Assembly (NCBI RefSeq): GCF_001042595.1
Contig: NZ_AP012326.1
Location: 2,232,001 to 2,296,000 of the forward strand
DNA from: Bifidobacterium dentium JCM 1195 = DSM 20436
Lineage (GTDB): Bacteria; Actinomycetota; Actinomycetes; Actinomycetales; Bifidobacteriaceae
DNA: 64,000 bases
Direction: 5' to 3'
Every line of letters begins with the position of its first letter. Position 1 is the first letter of the stretch. The notes beneath the pieces were generated by a model. The model did no database searches and was not told the DNA's origin. It was given only the letters and a program-made list of their open reading frames with translations. A program made the position numbers and the translations under genes. This document shows, in pieces, positions 4,760-56,665 of this stretch.

Positions 4760-4909
4760 CTCAGCCCCCTTTTCATAATGTGGTCAAACCGTATGTGCTA
4801 GGAACCAATGTAGCCGTAAGTGTCCACATCATGCGTCTACAATCATGAAACACCGGTAACACTGCAAGAGTACAATCGCGGCATCAGCAACAAACCAAAG
4901 GGGACTAAC

Positions 4910-5671
4910 GTGACGGACCTTACGCTTATGACGTTCGCTAGCGACCCCGCCACCGTACTTCCCTCCCTCGCCCTGCTTTCGCATCGCGTGCGCGTATTGC
5001 CGATGGATGCGGCGAGTTTGGTGAAGATGCCGGAAAACACGATTCTCTTTCTTGACGCACGTGACGATCTAGCCACCGCGAAGACGCTGTGCCGTCTGAT
5101 TCACGCCTCCGGACTGTCCACGCCGATTGTGCTGATTCTCACCGAGGGCGGCTTCACCGTGGTCAATTCCCAGTGGGGCATCGCCGACGTGGTGGTTTCC
5201 ACCGCCTCCCCGGCCGAGGTCGAGGGGCGCCTGCGTCTGGTGTCGGAACGTGGCAACGCTCCGACGGGATCCGCAGCCGGAGCCGCCGAAACCGGCGTAC
5301 AGAACGAGGACGGTCTCATCCGTTCCGGCGATCTGGTCGTGGACACCAATGGCTATACGGCAAGCCTGCGCAGCCATCCGATCGACCTTGCCTACAAGGA
5401 ATTCGAGTTGCTCAAGTATCTTGTGCAGCATCCGGGACGCGTATTCACCCGTGCGCAGCTGCTGCAGGAAGTATGGGGCTACGATTATTACGGCGGCACT
5501 CGTACCGTCGACGTGCATATCCGTAGGCTCCGCGCCAAGCTGGGCGGAGAATATGAGCATGTGATCGGCACCGTGCGTAATGTCGGATACCGTTTCGACC
5601 CGCCGGAGGAAGAGGAAGGCGAGAACGCCGCCAAGGCAAGCGCCGCACATGCCGATGCAAGCGAGGCGTAG
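4910..5671 (+). CDS. glnR: GlnR-type orphan response regulator (OmpR family)
   Basis: GlnR-like proteins are DNA-binding regulators of nitrogen metabolism in actinobacteria. The N-terminal receiver-like domain (about residues 1-115) keeps an Asp in LFLDARDDL but lacks the usual conserved Lys and acidic cluster, as in phosphorylation-independent GlnR. The C-terminal winged helix (about 140-230) is strongly conserved: KEFELLKYLVQHPGRVFTRAQ, VWGYDY, and GTVRNVGYRF. A Glu/Ala-rich tail follows. I chose the GTG at 4910 (preceded by AAAGGGGAC) over an upstream ATG at 4820 because homologues begin with a similar LTLMTFASDP segment. No histidine kinase is adjacent. Confidence 0.85.
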   Translation: MTDLTLMTFASDPATVLPSLALLSHRVRVLPMDAASLVKMPENTILFLDARDDLATAKTLCRLIHASGLSTPIVLILTEGGFTVVNSQWGIADVVVSTASPAEVEGRLRLVSERGNAPTGSAAGAAETGVQNEDGLIRSGDLVVDTNGYTASLRSHPIDLAYKEFELLKYLVQHPGRVFTRAQLLQEVWGYDYYGGTRTVDVHIRRLRAKLGGEYEHVIGTVRNVGYRFDPPEEEEGENAAKASAAHADASEA

Positions 5672-5705
5672 CGCGTAAAGCATCGCAATCGCACGATCGC
5701 CTGAG

Positions 5706-5719
5706 TAGAATCATGGGCA
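5706..5719 (+). promoter_or_regulatory. Candidate -10 box for a leaderless nth mRNA
   Basis: TAGAAT at 5706-5711 lies 8 nt before the ATG at 5720. No Shine-Dalgarno is present, so transcription could start at or next to the A of the start codon. Confidence 0.45.
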
Positions 5720-6385
5720 ATGCCACGAGAGTCCAAAGCAGCGCGCCTGAAACGCATGCACCATGAATACGAGGAATTGTGCGAGACGATTCCCGAGCCG
5801 AAGTGCGCGCTGAATTTCACCAATCCCTTTGAGTTACTGGTGGCGACCGTGCTCAGCGCCCAGACCACCGACAAGCGCGTGAATATGGTCACGCCCGTGC
5901 TGTTCGGCCGGTTTCCGGGACCCGCCGACCTGCAGGCCGCCGATCCCGAACAGGTTGAGGACATCATCCATTCCATCGGCTTCCACCGCACCAAAACGAA
6001 GAACATCATCAGACTCTCGCACGACCTGTGCGAACGATATGACGGCACAGTGCCCGATTCGATGGAGGAACTGACCGCATTGCCCGGAGTCGGCCGCAAA
6101 ACCGCGAACGTGGTATTGGGCAACGCCTTCGACAAACCAGGATTTCCCGTCGACACGCATGTGATTCGTGTGACCGGACGTCTGCACTGGCGTAGTGACT
6201 GGGCTTCGCCCACTCCGGATCCGGTGGCCATTGAACGCGAAATCACCGCATGCTTCCCACCCTCGGAATGGACGGACCTGTCTCACCGGCTGATCATGCA
6301 TGGCAGAACCACCTGTCACGCCCGCAAACCGAACTGCCTCGACTGCCCGTTGAACGATACCTGCCCGAGTGCGTTCAAGGTGTAG
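5720..6385 (+). CDS. nth: Endonuclease III (DNA glycosylase/AP lyase)
   Basis: Endonuclease III removes oxidised pyrimidines and nicks the abasic site in base-excision repair. The 221-aa length fits. The helix-hairpin-helix carries LPGVGRKTANVV with the catalytic Lys (about residue 130). The catalytic Asp is in FPVDTHVIRV. The C-terminal [4Fe-4S] loop has the expected cysteines: CHARKPNCLDCPLNDTC (C-x6-C-x2-C-x5-C). The gene follows glnR by 48 bp. It lacks a Shine-Dalgarno and has a TAGAAT box 8 nt before the start, consistent with leaderless translation. Confidence 0.96.
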   Translation: MPRESKAARLKRMHHEYEELCETIPEPKCALNFTNPFELLVATVLSAQTTDKRVNMVTPVLFGRFPGPADLQAADPEQVEDIIHSIGFHRTKTKNIIRLSHDLCERYDGTVPDSMEELTALPGVGRKTANVVLGNAFDKPGFPVDTHVIRVTGRLHWRSDWASPTPDPVAIEREITACFPPSEWTDLSHRLIMHGRTTCHARKPNCLDCPLNDTCPSAFKV

Positions 6386-48771: not shown

Positions 48772-50205
48772 TCACGCCATCTGGCGTTCCAGTCCGAAGT
48801 CGACGGTTCGCCGATCATGCCCCAGCGTGGCGATATGGGTGAACGTCTCATAATCGGGAATATCGGCGAGCATGACATCCCCGGCGATGCAGCGGTCGTC
48901 AAGGATGACGGCACGGTCCATGGTCTTCCAGCAGTATTCCAAGTCGTGCGTAACGGTCAGGATGGTTCGCCCACAGGCATGCAGCCGGTTGACGTAGTCG
49001 ATCAGCAGATCCCGGGTGATCGGATCGATCGAATTGGTCGGCTCGTCCAGCATGATGACGTGAGGGTCGAACAGCATGCCCGCCACCAGACCGGCACGCC
49101 CGCGCATGCCGCTGGACAGCCTGGACACCCTCGTATCGAGGAACGGGTCCAGTTCGAACGCCCGCACCAACGGTTCCCCGCCGAGCCGGGAGGGATCCAT
49201 GCCTCCCGTGCCATCCGGATCGAACAGCAGGCCACGGAACCTGATATTGTCCCGGACGCTCATCGCACTGATGAGATTCGCATGCTCCGTCATCAGGAGC
49301 ACATCCCGCATCGACGGTACGAGCATGCCGTTGATGACGCAGCGTCCGCTTCGTGGACGCAACAGTCCCGTAATGAGTTTGAACAACGTCGTCTTGCCCA
49401 CGCCGTTATAGCCGAGGATGGCCACCGACTGGCCTTGGGGAACCGTGAAGGAAACGTCATCCAGCACGGTTTGGCGCCTGCCGTACCCGAACGTGACATG
49501 TTCCACCGCGACGGACATACCCTCCAACGCCATCCCATGGCCGTATCGTCCCGCATCCGACCGCAAGGTCGGGATGAACCTGCCACGGAGCACGCGCGTC
49601 GTGATGGCGAAAGCGCCCGCGCCGCATAATGCGGCCACGATGGACGAGACCGTCAGGGCGAGCACCGGATCCACGAGATGCCACAGGGCGACATTGGCGA
49701 ACACGGGCAGGGCGAGTGCCAGCGGCGTAAGGTACAACGCCGAATCCGGGTTCAGCAGACGTAGGCATATCGCCAGTTGCGTACCCAACGCGGCCCACGC
49801 CCCGTTCAGCACGAACGCCATAACAAGCTGCATCACCGTCACGGGCATGTCGGATGGCTGCCAATGGTCCACGGCCAGTCCCGCCACCAGGGATACCAGC
49901 AGGAACGCCGATGAGACCGCCTCATAGAACCAGAGTTTCGCGGTCAGATATTCGCGCAGCGGCAGGCCGGCCTGCACGATCAGCTCGAACACCCCTGACC
50001 GGTAGTCGTCGTACGTGGTGTAATCCACGCAGAGCGAGAAAAGCAGGGCGAACCCGGGCGCGTCGATCATCGCGGTGGACAACGACTCCCCCGCCTCCAA
50101 GAAGAGCGGGTTCAGGGCCAATATGAACGGCCAGATCAGCGCACACCACAGAGCCCTGTCAAACGACGTGTACAGGCGGAACTCCTTGAACCAGATGGCC
50201 TTCAT
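48772..50205 (-). CDS. ABC transporter, permease and ATPase fused in one chain
   Basis: The 477-aa protein has an ABC-2-like permease in the N-terminal half (about residues 1-205, with five or six membrane segments, no signal peptide) and a complete ATPase in the C-terminal half. Walker A is GYNGVGKTT (about 265-273), the signature is SSGMRGRAG, Walker B is VIMLDEPTNSID and the H-loop is VTHD. Its ATPase part resembles the separate ATPase at 53835-54545 (FGYGRR segments in both). Permease-first half-transporters that dimerise are known mainly as exporters. The start has a clear AAGGAG-like site lacking; ATG at 50205 is used by frame. It is probably the last gene of a small operon with two membrane proteins. 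Confidence 0.8.
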   Translation of the reverse strand: MKAIWFKEFRLYTSFDRALWCALIWPFILALNPLFLEAGESLSTAMIDAPGFALLFSLCVDYTTYDDYRSGVFELIVQAGLPLREYLTAKLWFYEAVSSAFLLVSLVAGLAVDHWQPSDMPVTVMQLVMAFVLNGAWAALGTQLAICLRLLNPDSALYLTPLALALPVFANVALWHLVDPVLALTVSSIVAALCGAGAFAITTRVLRGRFIPTLRSDAGRYGHGMALEGMSVAVEHVTFGYGRRQTVLDDVSFTVPQGQSVAILGYNGVGKTTLFKLITGLLRPRSGRCVINGMLVPSMRDVLLMTEHANLISAMSVRDNIRFRGLLFDPDGTGGMDPSRLGGEPLVRAFELDPFLDTRVSRLSSGMRGRAGLVAGMLFDPHVIMLDEPTNSIDPITRDLLIDYVNRLHACGRTILTVTHDLEYCWKTMDRAVILDDRCIAGDVMLADIPDYETFTHIATLGHDRRTVDFGLERQMA

Positions 50206-50280: not shown

Positions 50281-50674
50281 TCAGGGGCGGAAAGACCCGG
50301 ATGGCGTCTTCCATCCTACGCCCGGGTCCTTCCGCCATGCGGCCGCGAGAATGACCACGTAGACGAGACAGAGGGCATCCTGGACCCATCCCAGCGTCCG
50401 TGGGTTCAGCCAGCCGCCCATAAGCCACCCATGCCTGCCCATCCCTAGGGAAAGCCAGACCAGCAGGTGCGTGACGACCGACACGACGATGCTCCAGAAC
50501 GGGTAATAGCGCACCACATGCACCAGCGGGACCGCACACAGCCCCAGCATGATCCACATGACCATCCAGGCCGCGCCGCCGGCCGGCATCAGCCAGACCG
50601 CCGCGACCGAATCCGACCGCCACAACGGTGTAGACGAACCATTCAAGCATGTACAACGCCGTCTGCCTTTTCAT
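50281..50674 (-). pseudogene. Small membrane protein gene with an apparent frameshift
   Basis: A strong ribosome-binding site (AAGGAAGGA, 7 nt) precedes the ATG at 50674, whose frame reads MKRQTALYMLEWFVYTVVAV and then turns to Arg/Gly-rich sequence unlike a protein. From about 50646 the neighbouring frame encodes a convincing membrane protein: AAWMVMWIMLGLCAVPLVHVV, SIVVSVVTHLLVWLSLG and DALCLVYVVILAAAW, ending at 50281. The simplest reading is one gene of about 130 aa with a frameshift around 50600-50640, from mutation, sequencing error or programmed shifting. If instead the short 121-aa frame starts on its own at 50646, it lacks a ribosome-binding site. Confidence 0.55.
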
Positions 50675-50753: not shown

Positions 50754-51083
50754 TCAATGCAGGACGAGGCAAATCAAGACGACGAGCATGATGAGGGCGA
50801 GTGCCAGCAACACGCAGGAGACACGCCTGCGGCCGGCTCTCGTCAGGGCGGGATCCGTGACGCGGTACAGGCCGTATTCCGAGGCCAGGAGGATCGCGAA
50901 CGCCACCAGCAACGACGCCGCCAGCATGACGAGGTCCTTTTCACGGATGGACTGGAACACCATCCCGCTCCCATAGATGACCGTAAGCATCGCGCTCAGG
51001 CCGTGCCCGTTGAACGACGAGTTCCCGACCGGCTTACGGTTCGCCTCGCCGACCCTGCGGACCAGTTCGCGTATGCGACCCAT
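50754..51083 (-). CDS. Small membrane protein of unknown function
   Basis: I do not recognise this 109-aa protein. It has a basic N-terminal part (GRIRELVRRVGEANRKP) and about three hydrophobic segments (about residues 30-46, 52-68 and 88-108). AAGGAG precedes the ATG at 51083. It is the first gene of the minus-strand group that leads to the fused ABC transporter and is paired with the frameshifted small membrane protein, so an accessory role in that transporter is likely. No catalytic motif. Confidence 0.72.
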   Translation of the reverse strand: MGRIRELVRRVGEANRKPVGNSSFNGHGLSAMLTVIYGSGMVFQSIREKDLVMLAASLLVAFAILLASEYGLYRVTDPALTRAGRRRVSCVLLALALIMLVVLICLVLH

Positions 51084-51888: not shown

Positions 51889-52115
51889 GGGAAAAGCGAC
51901 ACCGCCAATCATCACTGTCCGGACGAAGGATGGGCCATATAATCCCGTCAGGCACATGGCCCGCGCACGGTCCAAGCACGGCGCATGCAAGAAGCCTGGA
52001 GCATCGGCAGCAGGGCTTTCCTGTAGGCCATCACGTAACCAGTCCGTCGAAATGGACACCCGCATGTCCGGATTACGCCAGGACAACAGGCATGCATGCA
52101 CCAGTTCATGAATGG

Positions 52116-52406
52116 TCATGCATGCCCTTTGATGGAGAGCCTCACGATCAGACCTGCCACGGCGCATACCGCAAGGCACGCGAGTAGCAGCATCAGGGCG
52201 GATCGCGGGCTGCCCAATCCGAATTGCATCATGATCCCGTTCGTCGAGGGTCTCGTTTCGAAGTAGACAGCCCCCCAGAGTGCGTCCGTATGCTGCTGTC
52301 TGCCTGGCGTGGAGAGCATCGCCCAGACAAGCCCTCCCACCAGCATCATGAGCCAGAGGACGGTGCCCGCGCAGATCGTCATGAGGATATGTTTAGCGAT
52401 GCTCAT
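52116..52406 (-). CDS. Small two-to-three-segment membrane protein, end of the split ABC operon
   Basis: The 96-aa protein has hydrophobic segments at about residues 7-30 and 68-88 and no known motif. Its ATG at 52406 lies inside the end of the permease gene (overlap of 14 nt), with AGGAG upstream, so it is translationally coupled. Position and size suggest an accessory subunit of the ABC module. Compare the small membrane proteins beside the fused ABC transporter. Confidence 0.72.
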   Translation of the reverse strand: MSIAKHILMTICAGTVLWLMMLVGGLVWAMLSTPGRQQHTDALWGAVYFETRPSTNGIMMQFGLGSPRSALMLLLACLAVCAVAGLIVRLSIKGHA

Positions 52407-53838
52407 ATCGCATGCTCCTTTGATGGGTTTGTATGCCGAGGATGGAGTAAAGGATCATCGCCGCCAGTATCGCGACGAGCACGACGGCAAGGATCGGCCC
52501 ACGCAGATCGAGCAGACCTATGGCGAACAGCAGGAGGGTTCCGGCAAGCGCGAAGGATCCGAGCCCCACGATGGCGGTGAGTGGATTGTGTTTCGTCATC
52601 GGGAAGACGATTCCCAGCATCGTGCAGACGATGGAGCCCGCGACGATGCCGGCAAGCGAGTAGAGGCAGCCAAGCGGGGTCGGCCCACCCCATGGCAGGG
52701 TGGGCAGGCTTATGGCCAGCCATATCGGAACGTATACGGCCAATTGCGAGCAGATCATGCACAGATACGTGTATGCGGCCGATCCGCGGTGCAGGTTCCA
52801 TATCGCCACAATGCCGTTGGCGAACTGGGACAGGCCCGTGAACGTGACGATGCATGCGGGCAGTGTGGCGAATCCGGTATCACCCCGCACGCATAGCACG
52901 ATGGCCAGGGCGGCGGCAAGGATGCTTTCTAGGAACGTGTCCTTGGACCGAAGCACGTACGCGGCGAACATGGTGATATCACCCCGTCCGGCCGCAGGGC
53001 AGTGGATGGGCAGATAGTCCGCCTGCTCGCGGTATCGGGGCGGTGAGACCGCCACGTCCGCAAGCGTGACGGCCAGGAGCAGTGCCGATGCGCCGATTCC
53101 CGTGGGCAGTCCGCCGATCCGGACGGCTAGGTCACCGACCACCGTGGCCCATAGGATGGCATCATCCCCACCCAGCCAGCGTTCCTGGATGTCCATCACC
53201 AAAGGCAGCACGAGCATCGCATAGCCGACCAGCATGGCCACCAAGCCGCAGATCGCCGTCACCGACGCGAACTGCGGCAGTCCGAGCATGCGCATCGCAC
53301 GACCGATCAGATCCCATGCCAGGCTCAGCATGGCGTACAGCAGCAGGGCCGGTAGCAGGAGATGCAAACAGGCCAGGCCGATCGCATCGACCCCGGTTGA
53401 CAATAGCAGTGAGACGGATATGGATAACACCGACACCGTCACGGCGGCCAGCACCACACCCATCTCGCTCGCCTTGATCGTCAGCCCACGCAATATGCCC
53501 GTGACGGGCAGACCGCTGACGATCCTGAGCGCGCCGTCGGCTTTGGAGAACAGCATCTTCACCAAGAGGAACACGCCGATGACCCATGGGATCGTGGAAA
53601 CCCATGACAGGTCGAGCATCATCGACCATTTGTCCCGATCGGCGCCCAACGGTCGGAGGAAGAAATACGCCACGACGCAACTGAACACCATCCAGGCGGC
53701 GGCCAAAGCCGTCAGCGACCAACGGACCATCCCGCTGCGCAACGCCCCGTACTGGATCAGCGTACGCCGGAAGAACCTCATCAGCAGCGTGGACACGACC
53801 ATGAACCGGATGATTCCGGCACGGGCCTTTCCCGTCAT
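52393..53838 (-). CDS. ABC transporter permease (multi-pass)
   Basis: The 481-aa protein has about 12 hydrophobic segments. It begins with a basic segment (MTGKARAGIIRF...RFFRRTLIQYG) and continues with YFFLRPLGADRD, then repeated membrane helices to the end. It is an ABC-2-like or fused double-length permease without extracellular domains. The ATG at 53838 overlaps the ATPase stop by 4 nt (ATGA) and follows GGAGG, so it pairs with the ATPase at 53835-54545. The long open frame to 54276 reads into the ATPase gene and is not used. The substrate is unknown; a peptide is possible from context. Confidence 0.85.
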   Translation of the reverse strand: MTGKARAGIIRFMVVSTLLMRFFRRTLIQYGALRSGMVRWSLTALAAAWMVFSCVVAYFFLRPLGADRDKWSMMLDLSWVSTIPWVIGVFLLVKMLFSKADGALRIVSGLPVTGILRGLTIKASEMGVVLAAVTVSVLSISVSLLLSTGVDAIGLACLHLLLPALLLYAMLSLAWDLIGRAMRMLGLPQFASVTAICGLVAMLVGYAMLVLPLVMDIQERWLGGDDAILWATVVGDLAVRIGGLPTGIGASALLLAVTLADVAVSPPRYREQADYLPIHCPAAGRGDITMFAAYVLRSKDTFLESILAAALAIVLCVRGDTGFATLPACIVTFTGLSQFANGIVAIWNLHRGSAAYTYLCMICSQLAVYVPIWLAISLPTLPWGGPTPLGCLYSLAGIVAGSIVCTMLGIVFPMTKHNPLTAIVGLGSFALAGTLLLFAIGLLDLRGPILAVVLVAILAAMILYSILGIQTHQRSMRYEHR

Positions 53839-54545
53839 GGTTCGGCCTCCAATGTCCTGACACGGTACCATTCGGCGATTCCGCCGTACCCGTCGATTAT
53901 CGACCGTGTGGGCAGGGGCGCGCTCATACGCCCGTTGCGCAACAGCACGATCTGGTCCGTGGTCCGTTCGAGCAATGCGAAATCGTGGCTGCATATCAGC
54001 ATCGACAGACCCCTCCCACGCATGCGAAGGAATTGTTCGACGCACAGGTACCAGGCGTCTATGTCGATGCCGTTGAGCGTCTCGTCCACGATGGTCAACG
54101 GACAGTGCAATAGGAACGCGCAGCACAGCTGGGTCTTCTTCCTCATGCCATGCGAATATGAGTCGATGAGCCTGTCCTGCACGCCCTCCATGCCGAACAG
54201 GGCGAACATGCGGCCCACCTCGGAGCGATCCGCACGCACGCCGTACAGCCGTGCGAGGGTGGACACATACTCCCATCCGGTCAGGAACGCTGGCACATCA
54301 TCGTTGCCTCCCACATGCATGATGCCGGTTTTGGCCTCTGCGGAGGTATGCTTCCGGCCGAGCATGGTGATGCTCCCCTCCCGCAGGTCGAGCACGTCGC
54401 ATACCAGATTGATCAGGGTCGTTTTCCCGGAGCCGTTGGAACCGATCATTCCCACGATTCTCGCCTGCGGGACGTGCAGGGACACGGATCGCAACACCTC
54501 GCCGCGACGCCCGTAGCCGAATGAAACGTCACGTATGTCCAGCAT
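53835..54545 (-). CDS. ABC transporter ATP-binding protein with non-canonical signature and Walker B
   Basis: The 236-aa protein is a stand-alone ATPase. Walker A is GSNGSGKTT (about residues 35-43), the Q-loop region is HVGGNDDVPAF, and the H-loop is ICSHD. The signature is SHGMRKK rather than LSGGQ, and Walker B reads LTIVDETLNGID where most have LLDEPTxGLD. The catalytic Glu is therefore preserved while the Pro is replaced by Thr. Similar variants occur in transporters for lantibiotics and other peptides, though the match is loose. AGGAGGG lies upstream of the ATG at 54545. It is followed by the permease with a 4-nt overlap and preceded by the short Trp-rich ORF. Confidence 0.86.
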   Translation of the reverse strand: MLDIRDVSFGYGRRGEVLRSVSLHVPQARIVGMIGSNGSGKTTLINLVCDVLDLREGSITMLGRKHTSAEAKTGIMHVGGNDDVPAFLTGWEYVSTLARLYGVRADRSEVGRMFALFGMEGVQDRLIDSYSHGMRKKTQLCCAFLLHCPLTIVDETLNGIDIDAWYLCVEQFLRMRGRGLSMLICSHDFALLERTTDQIVLLRNGRMSAPLPTRSIIDGYGGIAEWYRVRTLEAEP

Positions 54546-54563
54546 GATTCCCTCCTATGCATG

Positions 54564-54598
54564 CGTCCCTACCCGCTTCGAATCCGCGGACAGGGACG
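54564..54598 (-). promoter_or_regulatory. Hairpin between the short peptide ORF and the ABC operon
   Basis: CGTCCCT / AGGGACG arms enclose a 21-nt loop in which CCGC and GCGG can also pair. It lies in the 66-bp gap between the peptide stop and the ATPase start. It may be an attenuator or sequester the ATPase ribosome-binding site. Confidence 0.5.
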
Positions 54599-54611
54599 TT
54601 TTGGCAAACCG

Positions 54612-54671
54612 TCAGGTCCTGCATTCGACGACGGCCTCGATTCCCCACTGCACCCAATACCAATCGAGCAT
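54612..54671 (-). CDS. 19-aa Trp-rich peptide ORF at the head of the ABC operon
   Basis: The ORF reads MLDWYWVQWGIEAVVECRT and then stops. It has a near-perfect AAGGAGG Shine-Dalgarno 8 nt before the ATG. The peptide holds three Trp and one Tyr in nine residues and one Cys near the end. It matches no motif I know. A possible promoter (TTGCGC-18 bp-TACTCT) lies just upstream. An in-frame ATG ten codons earlier would give 29 residues but lies too close to the -10 box. It precedes the split ABC operon and faces the response-regulator/kinase pair. It may be a secreted or sensed peptide, or a Trp-rich leader controlling the operon through the downstream hairpin. Confidence 0.55.
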   Translation of the reverse strand: MLDWYWVQWGIEAVVECRT

Positions 54672-54819
54672 CAGTCTCACCTCCTTCGGCCGGCTCGTCA
54701 TGGTGAGAGTATGCGCCCGGAGCATGCCCGCGCAAACGGGTGTCATATGAAATCAGACGAGGCGCATCGGTCTCTTGTCTCACGGCGTACACCGGGTCCC
54801 GCTGCTATCATCGGTTGGA

Positions 54820-54833
54820 TACGATCGGGAGGT
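54820..54833 (+). promoter_or_regulatory. Candidate -10 box before the response regulator gene
   Basis: TACGAT at 54820-54825 lies 8 nt before the ATG at 54834. The intervening CGGGAGGT could also serve as a Shine-Dalgarno for in-frame ATGs at 54846 or 54858, so the start remains uncertain. Confidence 0.35.
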
Positions 54834-55505
54834 ATGTTCGAGGCAATGGGCATACGCATGAAGACCCTTGGCGTCGTGGACAACGACAGGTTCGCCCTGT
54901 GCGCCCTGAAAGCGTACCTGGATCAGACGCTCGACGGCATCACGCTGGCGTGGATGACGGAACACGCGAACACGGCGATCGCACGATGCGTGACGGGCGA
55001 ACGGCCCGACGTGCTGCTGGTCGACATGTCCATGGGCGATATCGATGGCGTCTCCGTCATACGGACGATACGCGAAAGGGACCGTCATACGAGCCTGGTG
55101 GCCATGACCTCGTTCCCTCTTGACGAGTATGCGGCCGACGCCGCCACGGCCGGAGCCCAAGCGATCGTAAGCAAGAACGATCTCCAGGGCCTGCAGGACA
55201 CGATCAGGCTCGCCGCCACGGGAGGCACGGGATCTTTCGAGGGGCTTCGTTTCCCGACCGCCGCCCAGGCATTCGCACGGATCCTCCGGGAGCCGAAAAC
55301 GGGAATCGCCCGTCTTAGCGGCAGGGAGATCGAAATCATCGAACTATGCCGGCAGGGCAACACGTCCACACTCATCGCCGAACGGACCGGGCTCACCGTG
55401 GCGAGCGTCAACACCTACCTGCAGCGTGCCTGCGAGAAGCTCGGGGCCAGGAACCGTGTCCAGCTGGTGTCGATGTGGCTCGAACTGAGCAGGCCGAGGC
55501 ACTGA
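54834..55505 (+). CDS. NarL/LuxR-family response regulator
   Basis: The 223-aa protein has a receiver domain (about residues 10-130) and a LuxR-type helix-turn-helix (about 158-215). The phospho-acceptor is Asp64 in DVLLVDMSMGDIDG; Thr/Ser in AMTSF and Lys in IVSKND complete the site. The HTH reads LSGREIEIIELCRQGNTSTLIAE, VASVNTYLQRACEKLGARNRVQLV. It is followed two bases later by the histidine kinase gene. The divergent ABC operon and peptide ORF are its probable targets. Start by the TACGAT box is tentative. Confidence 0.88.
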   Translation: MFEAMGIRMKTLGVVDNDRFALCALKAYLDQTLDGITLAWMTEHANTAIARCVTGERPDVLLVDMSMGDIDGVSVIRTIRERDRHTSLVAMTSFPLDEYAADAATAGAQAIVSKNDLQGLQDTIRLAATGGTGSFEGLRFPTAAQAFARILREPKTGIARLSGREIEIIELCRQGNTSTLIAERTGLTVASVNTYLQRACEKLGARNRVQLVSMWLELSRPRH

Positions 55506-55507
55506 CC

Positions 55508-56665
55508 ATGACGGGGCGAGACATGGACGGCGCTGTAGGCGCGCCCGGCAGGAGATTCATGCTGACGGCCTGCTGCTGCGCCATGCTCGCAGACCTGTAC
55601 TTCACGGCCGTCGGCGGGAATCTGGCGGATGGTCGGTCATGGATCCCGCTCATCCCATACGTCCTGCTGTGCGGCGCATTGCCCTTCAGACCAAAAACGG
55701 CGGGCCTGCTGCTCATCGTCTACTGGTGGATACTCGTCTGGTTACCGACCGGTTCGGCCTCCGACCTGCTGTTCAGCTCCTGCCTGGTCTGGGGCGTGCT
55801 CTCTTTCCTGCTGTCTCCGTGGATGACGCTGCTGGCGCAGTCCTGCAACGTGCTGCTCCTATCCCTGACGGTCCTGCGGGATACAAGCGAGCCACGCGCG
55901 GTCATCGCGGTGCTCGTCATGCAGATCGCGGCCACGGTCGCGGGATACGCGCTCAGAAGGCACCGGCTTGACGATACCGCACGCGAACAGCGACTCCGCC
56001 TGCGGACCACCCAGGAGCGCATCGCGATATTGGAACGCAACATGCGTCTCGCCAGACGTTTGCACGATGATCTGACCAATAACCTCGCATCGATCGGCAT
56101 GCTTTGCGAGGCGCACCTCCTGTCGTGCAGCGACCCCGACGAGCGCCTGCTACTGACATCCATCCGGGACAAGACCTGTGAATCGGTCTCCTGCGCGCAC
56201 GAGGTCATCGACATACTCCGGGGGCAAACCGGACCGGATCCCGCCTCCCGTGCGAGACCGGGCGGGTGGGGGCGGACGATCCGCGGCTTGGTCGAGGCCA
56301 GGCAGGCCGAACTGCGCAGGCATGGCTTCGAGGGTTCCGCCAGCGTCACCATCGATCCGGATGCCGTGCTCCCAATGGCGGTGGCGGACGAGATCGTCTC
56401 GCTGCTCGCCGAGGTGTATTCCAACATCCGGGCCCATGCCTCGCCGACCGACGGGGGATTCTCCCTTGAGCTCGCCGTCAGCGATGACGGAATCCGTCTG
56501 GTGCAGATGAACATGTGCCGTCCCGACGACCGTACGGTATCAGGACGTGGCCTGCAGCTCCACCGTCATATCATCGCCACCCTTGGCGGCACGCTGTCGA
56601 CCAGCCTGGAGGACGACGTATGGACGTTGAAGGCACACATCCCGAAGCATTCCCCGCAAGCGTGA
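55508..56665 (+). CDS. Histidine kinase of the HisKA_3/NarX type
   Basis: The 385-aa protein has five or six membrane segments in the first 150 residues, a short coiled linker and a dimerisation/phosphotransfer region with RLARRLHDDLTNNLASIGML (His186). The ATPase domain has an N-box-like EVYSNIRAHA and a G-box SGRGLQLHRHIIATLGG, and the C-terminal end is short and degenerate. There is no large extracellular domain, so ligands must be sensed in or near the membrane. GAGG lies 8 nt before the ATG. It is the partner of the response regulator just upstream. A strong terminator follows. Confidence 0.86.
   Translation: MTGRDMDGAVGAPGRRFMLTACCCAMLADLYFTAVGGNLADGRSWIPLIPYVLLCGALPFRPKTAGLLLIVYWWILVWLPTGSASDLLFSSCLVWGVLSFLLSPWMTLLAQSCNVLLLSLTVLRDTSEPRAVIAVLVMQIAATVAGYALRRHRLDDTAREQRLRLRTTQERIAILERNMRLARRLHDDLTNNLASIGMLCEAHLLSCSDPDERLLLTSIRDKTCESVSCAHEVIDILRGQTGPDPASRARPGGWGRTIRGLVEARQAELRRHGFEGSASVTIDPDAVLPMAVADEIVSLLAEVYSNIRAHASPTDGGFSLELAVSDDGIRLVQMNMCRPDDRTVSGRGLQLHRHIIATLGGTLSTSLEDDVWTLKAHIPKHSPQA

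Follow-up and report, generated by a model that had tools for sequence, protein, structure and literature searches.

The window, by which we mean the whole 64-kb stretch of DNA that was analysed, carries on its minus strand a short open reading frame (ORF) placed ahead of genes for an ATPase, a permease and a small membrane protein, with a response regulator and a histidine kinase in the divergent direction. This arrangement had been put forward in a preliminary description of the locus and is confirmed here, as are the length of the ORF (19 residues), its strand and the spacing of its ribosome-binding site. The features to which we refer are the following.

51959-52122, minus strand: fifth gene of the operon, a broken remnant of a site-2-protease-like metalloprotease (tblastn on 1 kb, two frames)
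52116-52406, minus strand: small membrane protein, the fourth operon gene in relatives
52393-53838, minus strand: membrane permease of 481 aa, with relatives in scattered Actinomycetales and no Pfam or NCBIfam cut-off reached
53835-54545, minus strand: ABC transporter ATPase (Pfam ABC_tran)
54564-54598, minus strand: hairpin in the interval between the short ORF and the ATPase, with no T-run and not resembling an intrinsic terminator
54612-54671, minus strand: 19-codon ORF, homologous to the C-terminal tail of the 76-96 aa one-helix membrane protein of relatives
54680-54686, minus strand: AAGGAGG ribosome-binding site, 8 nt before the ATG
54834-55505, plus strand: NarL/LuxR-type response regulator, divergent, not a conserved operon partner
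55508-56665, plus strand: histidine kinase, divergent, likewise not a conserved operon partner

The 19-codon ORF reads MLDWYWVQWGIEAVVECRT and runs on the minus strand from 54671 to 54612 (ATG 54671-54669, TGA 54614-54612), with its AAGGAGG Shine-Dalgarno sequence (54686-54680) 8 nt ahead of the ATG. That heptamer occurs nine times in the 64-kb window, both strands considered, and is followed 3-12 nt later by an ATG in three of the nine; the other two such pairs open frames of 341 and 95 codons. Three more pairs are formed with GTG, one of which gives that 95-codon frame another possible start, while the remaining two open frames of 21 and 8 codons. The 19-mer has a single match within its own genome (2,635,669 bp), and a direct search of 112 genomes of the genus returned, beyond that genome, just three weak matches (best E 0.27).

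It had been suggested that a short conserved frame be sought upstream of homologues of the ATPase, and such a frame does exist, but it is longer than 19 codons. In four related operons, namely two in B. dolichotidis (G028; genomes and loci are given by G and L numbers), one in B. choloepi (G023) and one in a member of another genus (G173), a one-helix protein of 76-96 aa is encoded directly upstream of the ABC ATPase, and its C-terminus matches the 19-mer. The three Bifidobacterium genes encode 76, 85 or 96 aa as read, each containing a single hydrophobic segment and ending in a tail like HGTFTGGFVWVDFGFELRVHCTN; the G173 member has 79 aa from the start chosen. With the 16-residue tail of the window ORF registered on the last Cys and scored against these four relatives, a value of 34.25 is obtained, the next best among 1508 window ORF C-termini being 12.25 and the best unrelated C-terminus among 5734 (window plus eleven loci) 19.75. 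The latter, at L075, was rejected as a candidate, its frame being on the strand opposite to the L075 kinase gene. Furthermore, tblastn of the full-length relatives on 54501-55000 recovered the tail (best E 5e-4) and found no helix piece on the operon strand. The ORF carries the family tail pattern W-x-[WF]...G...C in syntenic position, directly upstream of the ATPase, and lacks the helix, the first Cys and the FTG motif of the full-length relatives; its maximum Kyte-Doolittle value over a 19-residue span is 0.18, as against 2.43-2.86 in five of them. As such, the earlier proposal of a novel peptide survives in part: a coding origin, membership of the ABC operon and the position of a peptide gene all stand, whereas a stand-alone 19-mer does not, since the 19-mer matches just the tail of proteins of 76-96 aa.

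The L040 full-length peptide, used as a query within the genus, finds itself, the G023 gene (E 1.9e-13) and the second G028 copy (E 1.1e-8). The remaining matches are weak, and the best of them (E 4.7e-4) contains four stops; a match in G087 was rejected as well, having no FTG tail and lying upstream of what by eye is a surface-protein-like gene. Twelve more full-length members were found in other Actinomycetales beyond the first four. These 16 were picked by eye or by the tail pattern before a profile was built from them, their own profile matches being by construction, and to this profile the window ORF is just a weak match (E 0.26). In their alignment, counted by eye, FTG and a C-terminal Cys are present in all 16, and a second Cys at the helix end in 15 of the 16, situated 25 residues before the last Cys in the four Bifidobacteriaceae members.

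An intact operon would thus appear to encode, in order, a one-helix precursor, an ABC ATPase, an ABC permease, a small membrane protein and a site-2-protease-like metalloprotease. The 25 loci examined comprise 16 with a full-length precursor, two with a short one (the window and G386, which belongs to another family) and seven in which no precursor was recognised (L052, L125, L126, L132, L138, L139 and L140). All four partners, the protease with its HExxH motif among them, accompany 13 of the 16 full-length precursors, so that the complete set is found in 13 of the 25 loci; of the other three, two are damaged (L103 and L106) and one, L128, is cut off by the end of its contig. At L125 and L138 (G504 and G818) the ATPase, permease and protease have matches and no precursor of the family was recognised upstream, where a divergent one may exist, and at L139, also without a recognised peptide, the gene order differs; these three loci do not count as supportive. 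The distribution is patchy within the actinobacteria. ATPase matches at E<=1e-40 occur in 3 of 112 genus genomes, that of the window included, with two copies in G028 and one in G023. The permease profiles have matches in 5 of 189 family genomes and 7 of 297 order genomes, and in four further family draws in 9 of 213, 5 of 186, 1 of 13 and 4 of 229, the searches overlapping in their starting genomes and the counts including broken copies; no plasmid match was found for the permease. What was found of the operon in the 14 kb read of G025 (L052, 5829-6507, minus strand) is limited to the C-terminus of the permease and the small membrane protein, and this remnant lies near a gene that by eye is cas3-like.

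Known families provide little by which to classify these proteins. No Pfam or NCBIfam match above cut-off was obtained for the window permease, the small membrane protein, three peptides or three proteases, and the window permease has no NCBIfam family even at E<=0.1. When the ATPase, permease, small membrane protein and four proteases were searched against PADLOC, the ATPase gave general matches only and the others no family at E<=0.01. The window ATPase is of the same broad type as the lantibiotic-protection (TIGR03740) and phenol-soluble-modulin export (PmtA) ATPases, but its scores of 75.3 of 309.75 bits and 69.2 of 350, respectively, are far below the cut-offs. In the open-access literature searched, no description of the five-gene operon was found. 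The family is distinguished by a compact membrane protease and by a precursor, in the three members checked below all Pfam and NCBIfam cut-offs, whose conserved tail carries FTG and, except in one of 16 members, two cysteines; the intact operons of B. dolichotidis and B. choloepi make its function testable in those species.

The fifth gene shares with the site-2/M50 and DUF3267 proteases an HExxH motif, a G-P motif and a C-terminal L-x-P-x3-D-G (mostly LLPxFGDG), found with few exceptions in the 11 relatives aligned; the proteins have just 145-201 aa as read. Across the alignment H, E, H, P and D are invariant, and the G of P-x3-D-G is kept in 10 of 11. Hits at E<=0.05 were obtained to Pfam DUF3267 with 3 of the 11 (best 8.7e-5) and to Peptidase_M50 with one (3.9e-5), and at that threshold no more than 5 of 11 match any Pfam family. 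In the window this gene is broken. By tblastn on 1 kb, the L045 protease matches an HExxH piece at 52122-51997 (E 7e-7), and LACAVLGPCAG is recognisable in another frame at 51991-51959 (E 0.003). Nothing convincing was found of the N-terminal part, which would be expected where the small membrane protein gene ends (52116). The ATPase, permease and small membrane protein genes of the window are intact.

Judging from these comparisons, we consider it fairly probable that the 19-codon ORF arose by deletion from the gene that heads a five-gene peptide-processing operon now in decay, and that it is probably vestigial. An internal deletion would have taken out the N-terminal region, the helix, the first Cys and the FTG motif, so that a start region came to lie in frame with the final 17 codons or so. 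The undeleted gene was seen in no close relative of the window, and for this reason the deletion in the window is one that we infer. A functional frame for the intact operons is offered by yydFGHIJ of Bacillus subtilis, which encodes an epipeptide precursor with a 17-residue mature product, a membrane-bound putative protease thought to release the peptide, and an ABC transporter for which a role in immunity is proposed (PMC7026026). In gene make-up, both systems combine a small precursor, a putative membrane protease and ABC proteins in one operon; yyd, however, includes a radical-SAM epimerase, whereas none was noticed by eye among the listed ORFs of L039-L041 and the window, and the precursors considered here carry a membrane helix and are accompanied by an extra small membrane protein. 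By analogy with the scheme proposed for yydFGHIJ, the membrane protease of intact operons may cut the membrane-anchored precursor, and the ABC proteins and small membrane protein may export the freed tail or protect the producer. An arrangement like that of yyd, with a membrane protease and an ABC pair beside a small precursor, is found in 13 of the 25 loci but not in the window, whose protease is not intact. There, the processing enzyme and most of its presumed substrate would be gone, and because protease and helix are lost the ORF is most likely vestigial, although it may be translated. As a general caution, what looks like a short ORF behind a strong ribosome-binding site may be all that is left of a longer gene.

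A comparable deletion can be seen directly in G386, where comparison with its congener G687 reveals a 177-nt in-frame internal deletion in the peptide gene. The short form retains the upstream region, the Shine-Dalgarno sequence, 12 codons with the ATG and, at the other end, the final 20. An ISL3-type transposase gene (L102, 3221-4654, minus strand; Pfam DDE_Tnp_ISL3, E 4.6e-45) breaks into the permease gene of G386 some 26-36 codons from its start, and the G386 protease is in one frame. Short forms are found in damaged operons in 2 of 2 cases and full-length forms in 2 of 15 (one-sided Fisher p 0.044, from small numbers, L128 at its contig end and the seven loci without recognised peptide being left out). 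Those two full-length genes, at L103 and L106, count against the deletion reading, since they survive in damaged operons. The damage at L103 is a permease frameshift that could be a sequencing error; at L106 (G316, 4800-6301) an apparent deletion joins the permease (residues 1-372) and protease (56-177) regions, no small membrane protein was found, and the precursor gene is full length. Also against the deletion reading are the near-perfect ribosome-binding site, the weak match to the 16-member profile, the three intact operon genes and a tail that has not drifted: the window tail has a mean fit of 34.25 to the four relatives, while each of these fits the others at 14.7-29.7. As the tail fits the relatives better than they fit each other, one of two things should hold: the deletion happened recently, or the tail remains in use.

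The same observations lend themselves to another reading, namely that the short ORF is active and yields, without any cutting, the tail which relatives free by proteolysis; the protease would then have become dispensable, and the ABC proteins would handle or sense a pre-trimmed peptide. Leaderless bacteriocins are peptides made without an N-terminal leader, and the window ORF, if active, would work likewise, except that its leader seems to have been lost from a longer ancestor. Besides the strong Shine-Dalgarno-ATG pair and the undrifted tail, such activity would be consistent with the loss of the protease along with the helix while the ATPase, permease and small membrane protein stayed intact, and with the frame kept in the G386 short form. 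The G386 tail differs from that of G687 at eight codons, five of which look lineage-specific by comparison with G807 and G808, one of them amino-acid-changing and four silent, a pattern that mixes, inseparably, the time before and after the deletion. On the other hand, the parts missing from the window ORF are the most conserved of the family (FTG in all 16 full-length members, the first Cys in 15 of 16), both short forms sit in damaged operons, and G386, with its protease in one frame and its permease interrupted, presents the reverse of what pre-trimming predicts. Furthermore, a 19-mer lacking any membrane segment would begin on the cytoplasmic side, unlike the tail of the relatives, which presumably lies outside. 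We therefore regard an active pre-trimmed peptide as unlikely. The wider proposition, that the intact operon is a new peptide signalling or antagonism system (a one-helix membrane precursor with two conserved Cys, a miniature site-2 protease that releases it and an ABC exporter that handles it) and that independent deletions in the window and in G386 have each yielded a leaderless peptide that is still made and active, seems to us distinctly doubtful on present comparisons.

Returning to the preferred reading, a vestige of a longer gene, three further explanations must be set against it. The preliminary description had considered that the ORF might be a Trp/Tyr-rich leader whose translation attenuates the operon through the hairpin at 54564-54598, and there are indeed three Trp codons and one Tyr codon near the start, with the hairpin just downstream. 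The hairpin itself is present, with 12 pairs in the predicted fold, but it has a z-score of just -2.18 (5 of 200 shuffles fold equally well), and the search of 54500-54900 returned 0 terminator-like sites. In the relatives the homologous aromatic residues sit, conserved, within a long protein. A stable fold follows the peptide gene in two of the three relatives folded (z-scores of -2.59 at L041 and -3.68 at L039, against -0.14 at L040, where it is absent), and at L053 only about 18 nt separate the peptide gene from the first possible ATPase start. Control of the operon by such a leader is accordingly very unlikely.

A comparably low probability attaches to a view of the ORF as an independent, novel micro-peptide that is secreted or signals and has the two-component system as its partner; this view draws on the proximity of the ORF to the divergent kinase and regulator genes. 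Each of the two closest homologues of the kinase (36-37% identity) shares its locus with an ABC ATPase and a large membrane protein, and in one case the kinase is followed by a small protein that looks secreted; in B. choloepi a LuxR-type response regulator (L041, 9070-9717), 25% identical to that of the window (blastp E 4e-12), lies downstream of the intact operon, with no kinase match within 14 kb. Against this, the tail is homologous to a longer gene, and the kinase, for which 87 of 112 genus genomes give a match at E<=1e-8, has none at that threshold in G023, G025 or G028, the other genus members with the operon or a piece of it; neither kinase nor regulator has a tblastn match at E<=1e-3 in L039, L040, L041 or L053. 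A conserved partnership with the two-component pair is not borne out, a result partly offset by the L041 regulator, and a regulatory link to the operon in a single species is conceivable. Those two kinase homologues are at L075 (7539-9273, G008) and L074 (G100); the small protein that follows the L075 kinase has no Pfam family at E<=0.001, though it seems to resemble lactococcin 972.

Last, a chance ORF with a chance ribosome-binding site, for which 19 codons are short enough on general grounds, is in effect refuted by the syntenic homology of a tail whose score (34.25) is far above those of the other 1507 window C-termini (12.25 or less). Also on the minus strand of the window, a single 477-aa ORF (48772-50205) appears by eye to be a fused ABC permease half and ATPase, and is adjoined by two small membrane-protein-like ORFs (50281-50646 and 50754-51083).
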